Part shown: piece by piece, positions 15,207-17,568 of the stretch | How positions within the stretch are numbered: the stretch's first letter is position 1 | Layout of the letters: every line of letters starts with the position of its first letter | From: Candidatus Uhrbacteria bacterium | Lineage (GTDB): Bacteria; Patescibacteriota; Patescibacteriia; 2-12-FULL-60-25 | Reading direction: 5' to 3' | Length of the DNA stretch: 64,000 nt | Assembly (NCBI GenBank): GCA_016222815.1 | Contig: JACRQE010000002.1 | Span: forward strand, 248,001-312,000 | The notes under the pieces: generated by a model | What the model was told of the DNA's origin: nothing | Databases searched by the model: none | What the model saw: only the letters and a program-made list of their open reading frames with translations | Translations under genes and position numbers: made by a program

Positions 15207-16307
15207 ATGGATGAGCTGAAGACAATGCTCCCGCAGGCCAACCACCTGCTTGGATATGCAGAACAGAAACAGCCGCCCTGGCTTAAGATCGGGCTGATAG
15301 CGATATCAGCCCTGGTCTTGGCCGGGGCGGTTTTGGTCGGTGGATATTCGATCCTCGGAAAAGTCCCACGGATAAAAGGGCAAGCAGTCGTTTTGACGGT
15401 GAACGGAGGACAAGCACTGCCGGTTTTCGTTCCGGAAATCTGGAAACGCGCAGTTAAGTCCAGCAACCTGCCGGTCATAGTGGGTTTGGCGAATGAATCG
15501 GGGAAGATGACGCCATACGCAATCACGAACAGATGGGCGTCATTGGAGGCCGAATATTTTCAGGAGTCTGATTTTTATAACCTATACAGCGATGGACCGA
15601 TACAGACAGAAGGGTACGTCGATTTTTTCCAAATAATCCAAGCCATATTTGATGCATCATCGGGTTCGGCACATCTGAACCTGGACACATCCGGGATGTC
15701 TGATGCTGACGGCATAGAAATCTCTGGACCTATTGTCGCGAATAGTTGGCGCAGCGACTTCAAACTCAAACACGCAGAAGGTTTAAACTCATCGGATAAG
15801 GATATTTTCGTGGATCTCGAATCCTTTCCCGAGGCTTGGCCCACGATAAACCAGGCGGTCAAAAATATTTCAGGGATCGAGATAGATGAAAAGCCAAAAA
15901 CGATCGGTTTCAATCTGTCGCCTGAAGGATTGGACGATTTGATGCTGACCTATTTGGAAACGCCGGCTGATACCACGCTCTTGAGGCTTGCCGGCTCGAT
16001 CGGCTTGTCTGACGTCATGCCATACGTCCTGCCGGATGGGACTACGGTCTTGGAGCTTAAGCTGCCAAAGCAGAAGTTAGGCCAATTCAATAACCAGATG
16101 AATCCTGATTCCTGGAAGTCCATCGCCATCAAGAATGGCAATATCCAGGATATCCAATCCGCAACCCTCCCAAAGGGACAGGGTTGCACCCAAGGCAGGA
16201 TTGCACTAAAAGTATCCAGAGTCGCTTTAAATACGGTTTTCGCCGACATCAATCAGGATTTTGAGCTACATGAGGATTCTGGATTGCTTGTAGCTTGCGT
16301 GAAATAA
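15207..16307 (+). CDS. Hypothetical membrane-anchored protein
   Basis: A 366-residue protein with one transmembrane segment near the N-terminus (about residues 28-50) and a large C-terminal part outside the membrane. Its N-terminus is short and its soluble part contains no family I recognise; it is beta/alpha mixed with several GL-S-D and LP-G patterns. It starts 12 bases after pnp, so it may be co-transcribed with it. No Shine-Dalgarno site is clear at ATG 15207. A DnaA-box region follows immediately. Confidence 0.65.
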   Translation: MDELKTMLPQANHLLGYAEQKQPPWLKIGLIAISALVLAGAVLVGGYSILGKVPRIKGQAVVLTVNGGQALPVFVPEIWKRAVKSSNLPVIVGLANESGKMTPYAITNRWASLEAEYFQESDFYNLYSDGPIQTEGYVDFFQIIQAIFDASSGSAHLNLDTSGMSDADGIEISGPIVANSWRSDFKLKHAEGLNSSDKDIFVDLESFPEAWPTINQAVKNISGIEIDEKPKTIGFNLSPEGLDDLMLTYLETPADTTLLRLAGSIGLSDVMPYVLPDGTTVLELKLPKQKLGQFNNQMNPDSWKSIAIKNGNIQDIQSATLPKGQGCTQGRIALKVSRVALNTVFADINQDFELHEDSGLLVACVK

Positions 16308-16403: not shown

Positions 16404-16432
16404 TTGATAGAAGGCTCAAAAAAAGGTATGAT
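16404..16432 (+). promoter_or_regulatory. Promoter of the structured RNA, TTGATA-17-TATGAT
   Basis: TTGATA, a 17-base spacer and TATGAT place a transcription start at about 16439. No start codon with a long plausible protein follows; instead the dense hairpin region begins. Confidence 0.75.
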
Positions 16433-16438
16433 GTATCT

Positions 16439-16966
16439 ACATGGCGTTACCACGTCATGAAGTCCACCACTGTGGACAACTTCGTACTTTCCACACACCT
16501 TCTGCAGGAAGTGCGGAAAGCGCAATTCCTAGAAGATCTTAGCTCAAGGGCTAAGACAGGACAGCTTGAAAGCGCCAAGAGCGCTGATGACCTCGTCGTT
16601 CCTTCATAACTGCTACACAATGGACTTCCATACTTGTATGGAGGCCAATTCAATGCCTTGACTCGACCTGTGCCGTTCATTCGGTACGTCGAAATCAAAA
16701 AACAAAACAATCTTAACTTAGGCGACCTCACTTATATTGGGCCTTCGGGCTCTCTCGAGGCTACCGCCGTGGTTGGGTCGAGAGCAGCAGCACTTTCTTT
16801 TAGACTTAGACATAGTGTCCAAATCGTCGATCCCGCCATGCGGGAATCGCCTCTCTTACCACTTGCACCGACAGGAGCACGACGAACATGGTACCCGCGT
16901 CCAAGCCTGGAACCGCGCGCGACCACTTATTACTTTAAGGGCCCTCCGTGCGGTTTCTTCTTTTTG
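16439..16966 (+). ncRNA. Candidate long structured non-coding RNA, unidentified
   Basis: About 530 bases with no credible protein, starting behind a good promoter and ending at a GGGCC/GGTTT hairpin followed by a T-rich run. I could fold many local stems: 16459-16483 (GAAG-TCCAC/GTGGA-CTTC), 16507-16529 (with a GAAA loop), 16538-16555, 16571-16585, 16628-16641, 16663-16692, 16739-16752 (with a UUCG loop), 16752-16784 (CTCTCGA/TCGAGAG) and 16829-16848 (CCCGC/GCGGG). It lacks the tRNA-like end and CCA of tmRNA, the GAGGAAAGTCC and ACAGAAA motifs of RNase P RNA, and the SRP RNA loop. It is too long for 6S RNA. Which class it belongs to is unknown. Confidence 0.65.
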
Positions 16967-17139
16967 TTGAATTTTATAACGCGACTTTGTTTAAGTAAAA
17001 ACAGTGATTCCTGTTACCCCTTGTCAAATACTCCTCTTTTGGCTGTATTGCGCAGGATTTCCATGGCATATCCGCTTTACACATCGCTCCTTGTTATTTT
17101 TAGCGTAAATAGGGCACACTATAACCATAGGCCAGGGTG

Positions 17140-17168
17140 TTGACGCACCCACATTTCCGGCCTATACT
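17140..17168 (+). promoter_or_regulatory. Promoter, TTGACG-17-TATACT
   Basis: TTGACG, 17-base spacer, TATACT; about 25 bases before the DksA/TraR-type gene. The roughly 170 bases between the RNA terminator and this promoter show nothing else. Confidence 0.75.
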
Positions 17169-17193: not shown

Positions 17194-17568
17194 ATGAACG
17201 CCGATAAAATCGAGTATTTCAAACAGCGGTTGTTGGAAGACCTTAAACGACTGACGCAACAGTTGGAGGATTTGGGCAGGAAGGATAATGAAAGGCCGGG
17301 ACACGTAGAGGTCGAATATCCGGAATCAGGCAGCAATTCCGAGGATGACAATGCCGCGGAGGTAACCCAATATGCGGACTCATTGTCGTTGGAAGCGCGT
17401 TTGGCCTCGGAACTGAAGGATACGGAAGATGCGCTCAAAGCCATCGAAAACGGCAACTACGGAAGTTGTAAGTACTGCAAGAAAGAAATCGATGAGAAGC
17501 GCTTGGAGGCACGTCCGGCATCCTCAAGCTGCATAAACTGCAAGAAGATCCTGACGCAGGAGATGTGA
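17194..17568 (+). CDS. DksA/TraR C4-type zinc finger protein
   Basis: A 124-residue protein of the DksA/TraR type. An N-terminal coiled-coil pair (residues 5-30 and 60-85) is followed by CKYC-x17-CINC, a four-cysteine zinc finger. DksA-family proteins enter the RNA polymerase secondary channel and adjust initiation. The acidic coiled-coil tip of DksA (DxxDxA) is not obvious; SEDDNAAEVTQYAD lies in the comparable zone. lspA overlaps its stop by four bases, so the two are an operon driven by the 17140 promoter. Confidence 0.85.
   Translation: MNADKIEYFKQRLLEDLKRLTQQLEDLGRKDNERPGHVEVEYPESGSNSEDDNAAEVTQYADSLSLEARLASELKDTEDALKAIENGNYGSCKYCKKEIDEKRLEARPASSSCINCKKILTQEM

Follow-up and report, generated by a model that had tools for sequence, protein, structure and literature searches.

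The window, by which we mean the whole 64,000-nt stretch of DNA analysed here, carries at 16439-16966 (+) a stand-alone structured RNA gene of ~530 nt. In the absence of expression data, we consider it likely that this is a single-copy, large noncoding RNA gene present through one class of Patescibacteria, whose product acts in trans, probably as a housekeeping RNP, and is made under rRNA-like antitermination. The gene, with its promoter, fold, terminator and conservation, is observed; the antitermination, the RNP and the housekeeping role are inferences. The locus reads, in order, pnp further upstream, a 366-aa gene, the RNA, a dksA/traR-type gene (called dksA below) and lspA. Its features, all on the + strand, are as follows.

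15207-16307, +: upstream gene, 366 aa, no Pfam match; conserved pnp-side neighbour
16404-16432, +: sigma-70-type promoter, TTGATA-17-TATGAT; same type conserved in homologs
16439-16966, +: whole noncoding RNA gene, starting at about 16439 and ending in the U-rich tail; supported by the fold (z -4.6) and by homologs
16440-16477, +: two 5' hairpins (16440-16459 and 16462-16477), from the fold of the window sequence; variable among homologs
16484-16490, +: boxA-like site 1, GTACTTT
16572-16584, +: hairpin GCGCC-AAG-AGCGC, seen in close relatives
16598-16604, +: boxA-like site 2, GTTCCTT, directly before the Px 5' strand
16610-16614, +: Px 5' strand CTGCT, pairing with 16786-16790; covaries, 0/500 shuffles
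16625-16643, +: hairpin Pa
16654-16668, +: Pb 5' strand, pairing with 16771-16786; 12/15 pairs covary
16670-16688, +: hairpin Pc, variable in sequence, from individual folds
16691-16710, +: conserved A-rich single strand GAAATCAAAAAACAAAACAA between Pc and Pd, from alignments
16721-16768, +: stem Pd (16721-16729 with 16757-16768), with an apical UUCG hairpin at 16739-16752; 11/13 pairs covary
16771-16786, +: Pb 3' strand GGTTGGGTCGAGAGCA, from covariation
16786-16790, +: Px 3' strand AGCAG, from the covariation of Px
16790-16796, +: boxA-like site 3, GCACTTT
16802-16908, +: domain closed by Py (16802-16807 with 16903-16908) and holding Pz (16824-16829 with 16880-16885)
16911-16966, +: terminal hairpin Pt with U-rich tail (intrinsic terminator); 6/6 outer-stem pairs covary, present in most homologs
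17194-17568, +: downstream gene, DksA/TraR-type zinc-finger protein, with its own promoter-like site at 17140-17168

The RNA is ~440-570 nt long in close relatives. The 366-aa protein, its constant neighbour on the pnp side, is fast-evolving, with 23-32% identity between genera.

An RNA gene with its own promoter and terminator

A sequence-only reading of this DNA had described an orphan structured RNA with its own promoter and terminator, and that description holds on the grounds of fold, homologs, covariation and the lack of an Rfam family. The TTGATA-17-TATGAT promoter it had named is confirmed at 16404-16432, and sigma-70-like promoters of the type TTGANN-17-TATNNT also precede the homologs: the best upstream promoter score averaged 9.1, compared with 7.7 in shuffles and 7.6 antisense, a score of 10 was reached in 24 of 43 homologs versus 1 antisense, and the spacing was 17 bp in 36 of the 43. 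At the other end of the RNA, the terminator that had been called there is also borne out. In the window it consists of a 9-10 bp stem, a long inner stem-loop and a U-rich tail, and was absent from the output of a simple scan because of its long loop. Homologs show an outer stem of 6-10 bp in this hairpin, with a GCC...GGGC stem inside it and a U-rich tail behind, and the outer stem of Pt is the best-covarying part of the 3' domain. The impression that open frames here look random was also correct. We detected no coding signal in the RNA, in which the longest stop-free stretches averaged 83 codons compared with 70 in shuffles, and the indels between homologs are irregular.

A covariance-model search of the window and the homologs tested against all 4227 families of Rfam 15, a check that the sequence-only reading had proposed, returned no match, permissive E-values included; a hit to AsdA at E = 5.2 is attributable to chance. 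That reading had been unable to match the RNA to OLE, GOLLD, ROOL or HEARO, and identity with any of these is rejected by the absence of a match to their Rfam covariance models.

The size of the RNA and its single-copy, class-wide occurrence would also be compatible with strong divergence from within a known housekeeping family (tmRNA, RNase P RNA, SRP RNA or 6S RNA). No convincing features of these four had been noticed in the sequence, and none of them has an Rfam match at the locus. The genome's tmRNA sits elsewhere (G000:C8:158736-159134), and neither RF00023 nor ARAGORN, by the criteria of tRNA-like ends and a tag frame, finds one here. The RNase P RNA is elsewhere too (G000:C6:23542-24015), with no RF00010 match at the locus. 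SRP RNA in the usual sense, raised by the motif GAAGCAGCAG, is rejected, the class being without both 4.5S RNA and the Ffh M domain: RF00169 was found in 0 of 96 class genomes and the Ffh M domain (PF02978) in 0 of 96, with positive controls. For 6S RNA, a search confined to this locus gave no RF00013 match. With nothing in Rfam matching the window or its homologs, descent from a known family is already largely refuted, and we give it almost no weight. SRP appears to have been lost in the whole class; its loss in Parcubacteria was published in 2015 (PMC4508563).

A covarying core and 3' domain

As a 536-nt RNA (16435-16970) the sequence folds at -178 kcal/mol, compared with -149 +/- 6.4 for shuffles (z = -4.6, 0/100 shuffles). 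In the core, Pb closes a three-way junction with Pc and Pd, whose linker is A-rich and conserved (GAAAnCAAAAAaCAAAAnC). Helix Px joins sequence preceding Pa to the end of Pb, and its pairings across homologs include ACUGC/GCAGU, ACUAC/GUAGU, AGCUAC/GUAGCU and ACGACUU/AAGUCGU. The 5' region before Px is variable, and in some relatives well under 100 nt long.

Across 34 sequences, 92.8% of cells in the core were paired and 23 of the 28 pairs changed on both sides, giving a covariation score of 0.478 compared with 0.176 when shuffled and at most 0.11 when slid. The core alignment had been fitted to the structure, so this score is favoured; individual folds of eight homologs gave the same core architecture without such fitting. 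For the 3' domain, comprising Py, Pz and the terminal hairpin, 90.6% were paired in 23 sequences, 14 of 18 pairs carried double changes, and the score was 0.407 compared with 0.175 shuffled, the structure having been derived from the same 23 sequences that were scored. With default settings, RNAalifold on alignment A6 returned the terminal hairpin only, and Py and Pz come from the RIBOSUM run. Py contains an A-C mismatch in the window sequence and gave 63/500 shuffles in a coarse window test; it rests on the alignment counts. Taken together, covariation demonstrates Px, Pb, Pd, Py, Pz and the terminal stem.

Of the features listed in the sequence-only reading, the UUCG tetraloop stands, as the apical loop of Pd. 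The 7-bp CTCTCGA/TCGAGAG stem is rejected as a conserved pairing and is a competing pairing of the window sequence alone: TCGAGAG forms the Pb 3' strand, and the GAGG of CTCTCGAGG is part of Pd.

One family, f46 (L055, L073, L075-L077, L079, L080 and L082), has in its 3' domain a long helix of the GGGCGUUGAGUUUU/AAAACCCAACGCC type, in which an A-C mismatch flanked by G-C pairs appears to be conserved.

Distribution through the class and the neighbouring dksA gene

Searching with blastn brought up homologs from three congeneric genomes and from several further genera of the family, and the same neighbours flank every one of them. A core covariance model of 149 positions (R1), built from an alignment of eight homologs, matched 32 of 41 genomes of the family and 41 of 380 genomes of the class. 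A broader model made from 43 sequences (R2) matched 97 of the 380 class genomes under strict filters; this figure is a floor, in that only the best candidates per genome were scored, it includes the genomes on which R2 was trained, and many class genomes were not reached. The total for the family is at least 35 of 41, made up of the 32 found by R1, G005 and G030 found by R2, and G018 found in the region upstream of dksA.

As a test of synteny, we fetched the dksA-upstream regions of 20 genomes without an R1 match and ran R2 on them without filters. Matches were obtained in 14 of the 20 at E < 0.1 (12 at E < 0.005), and each of them shares the strand of dksA and sits just ahead of that gene. 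Of the 14, three (L083, L086 and L095) belong to the R2 training set, and the independent figure, with these left out, is 11/17. These matches indicate that the RNA is class-wide despite low sequence identity. The homology search in Patescibacteria with covariation testing, put forward earlier as a check, has therefore yielded an RNA that is conserved across the class with strong covariation. Maintenance of the structure by compensating mutations throughout the class suggests that the RNA has an important job, the nature of which is unknown.

Outside the class we saw no convincing homolog; R2 gives only weak matches there, none beside dksA, and those with E from 4e-4 to 0.01 are about what chance would produce given such rough E-values. 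A scan for the exact motif named records from Candidatus Uhrbacteria and 'Patescibacteria group bacterium'. When exact-motif loci were tested with R2, 7/7 from Patescibacteria passed and 0/6 from other groups did, the matches in SAR86, Thauera and others failing the model. A mobile origin was likewise rejected, since neither phage and plasmid records searched with the window RNA nor viral contigs searched with the core motif gave a match.

Two unusual loci were seen along the way. An R2 match at G050:C6:77550-77716 (E 5.6e-8) is not beside dksA, which in that genome lies on contig C4, and is either a relocated copy or a false match. In L072 (G029:C12:25400-27600), the 5' half of the RNA and the core, at 762-909, run into the dksA reading frame; neither the 3' half of Pb nor any of the 3' domain is present, which reflects either a deletion in the genome or a misassembly.

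Most genomes, including distantly related members of the class, have the RNA immediately upstream of dksA and in the same orientation, and the RNA ends in an intrinsic terminator, as might be expected of a cis leader of dksA-lspA (a riboswitch, an attenuator or a protein-sensing element) whose terminal hairpin terminates conditionally until a signal lets transcription read on. However, the constant association with a downstream dksA that marks a riboswitch is not met: genus g14 (L036 and L040) keeps the pnp-side neighbour and has another gene downstream, its dksA being elsewhere, and in G015 dksA is divergent. Because the downstream gene in g14 is not dksA, a dksA riboswitch is unlikely and the RNA appears to be independent of dksA. 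In addition, dksA has its own promoter-like site (17140-17168), known leaders are much smaller than this RNA, and the gene order could stay conserved for other reasons. From g14, G015 and the dksA promoter-like site we infer that the RNA acts in trans; the dksA-lspA synteny leaves room for action in cis, to which we assign a small chance.

The gene that replaces dksA after the RNA in g14 encodes a large secreted repeat-rich protein (L036 1924-3174 and L040 1877-3172).

boxA-like sites, possible function and comparison with known RNAs

Leaders of rRNA operons carry boxB followed by boxA, and boxA is the NusB-S10 site. Between the 5' part of the transcript and the end of the core, the homologs contain 85 copies of GYWCYTT in sense and 6 in antisense. 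The motif occurs at 5.4 per kb in the RNA, compared with 0.39 (sense) and 0.58 (antisense) per kb in the downstream DNA, a 14-fold greater density, and at least one copy is present in 40 of 42 homologs. These sites are related by descent, and their number is not a count of independent events. They are concentrated in three places, namely the 5' end and the positions immediately preceding the Px 5' strand and immediately following its 3' strand, and in several relatives a hairpin can be seen by eye between the promoter and the first site. The sense strand of RNase P RNA or tmRNA has no GYWCYTT; the genome's own 16S leader has the related TGAACTTCGACAA. GYWCYTT is looser than the gamma-proteobacterial boxA consensus GYTCTTTAANA (PMC5725501), which we count against reading the sites as boxA. 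That they mean Nus antitermination is an inference, without binding data.

The GYWCYUU repeats might alternatively make the RNA a trans-acting sponge or decoy that titrates a protein such as NusB-S10, or pairs with the ribosome-binding sites of mRNAs, on the model of CsrB-type RNAs, which titrate CsrA. Many homologs do have two to four sense-strand sites, some of them at fixed places flanking Px, but there are only about one to four per RNA, and what is most deeply conserved is the folded core, the A-rich strand and the terminal hairpin, none of which a sponge needs. We therefore think a sponge improbable and favour a folded housekeeping RNP.

For such an RNP, transcription would start at the sigma-70-type promoter and end at the intrinsic terminator, which is also the last conserved hairpin. 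The boxA-like sites, placed behind a 5' hairpin in several relatives, may recruit NusB-S10, and the long untranslated RNA would then be made and folded under rRNA-like antitermination. Its fold is a core closed by Px, containing hairpin Pa and the three-way junction of Pb, Pc and Pd, followed by the Py/Pz domain and the terminal hairpin. The mature RNA could serve as scaffold or catalyst of the RNP, which has no known protein partner; its putative binding surfaces would be the A-rich strand and the terminal hairpin.

Very small genomes are the rule in Patescibacteria, a huge and for the most part uncultured group, and this class has dropped even SRP yet keeps a noncoding RNA gene of ~0.5 kb. 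To our knowledge, large structured bacterial RNAs conserved class-wide are rare, and their known roles are nearly all those of central machines (rRNA, RNase P RNA and tmRNA). It is possible, if rather doubtful, that we are dealing with an ancient, class-wide, Nus-controlled housekeeping RNP that is unknown in other bacteria and carries out an essential task specific to these reduced cells, such as a ribosome-associated function after the loss of SRP; that the RNA takes over some of the work of SRP is speculation. The boxA-like sites provide a testable lead to Nus antitermination acting beyond rRNA operons, on a stand-alone noncoding RNA, and with a defined core, helices and a covariance model the family is searchable and its partner open to pull-down.

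The RNA meets the criteria for a large orphan RNA (at least 0.4 kb, extensive covariation-supported structure, no coding signal and no known function), and in the open-licence literature we found nothing of this kind in Patescibacteria. We file it as a new family among the large orphan RNAs, not as a member of OLE, GOLLD or ROOL. Like those RNAs (PMC12286853), it is large (0.5-0.8 kb in their case) and of unknown function, with an elaborate conserved structure and no coding capacity; it differs from them in being unmatched in Rfam, in sequence, structure and host range, and in its boxA-like sites. GOLLD and ROOL come mostly from (pro)phages, close to tRNA islands (PMC12286853), whereas the window RNA is chromosomal and class-wide. 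With tmRNA and RNase P RNA it shares a similar length and the character of a single-copy, housekeeping-type RNA gene, but those have another architecture, lack sense-strand boxA-like sites and are located elsewhere in the genome. With rRNA operon leaders it has in common a promoter, in several relatives a 5' hairpin, and then a sense-strand boxA-like element; unlike those leaders, it has no rRNA behind it, its transcript stops at a terminator of its own after ~0.5 kb, and the boxA-like sites recur within the folded RNA itself.
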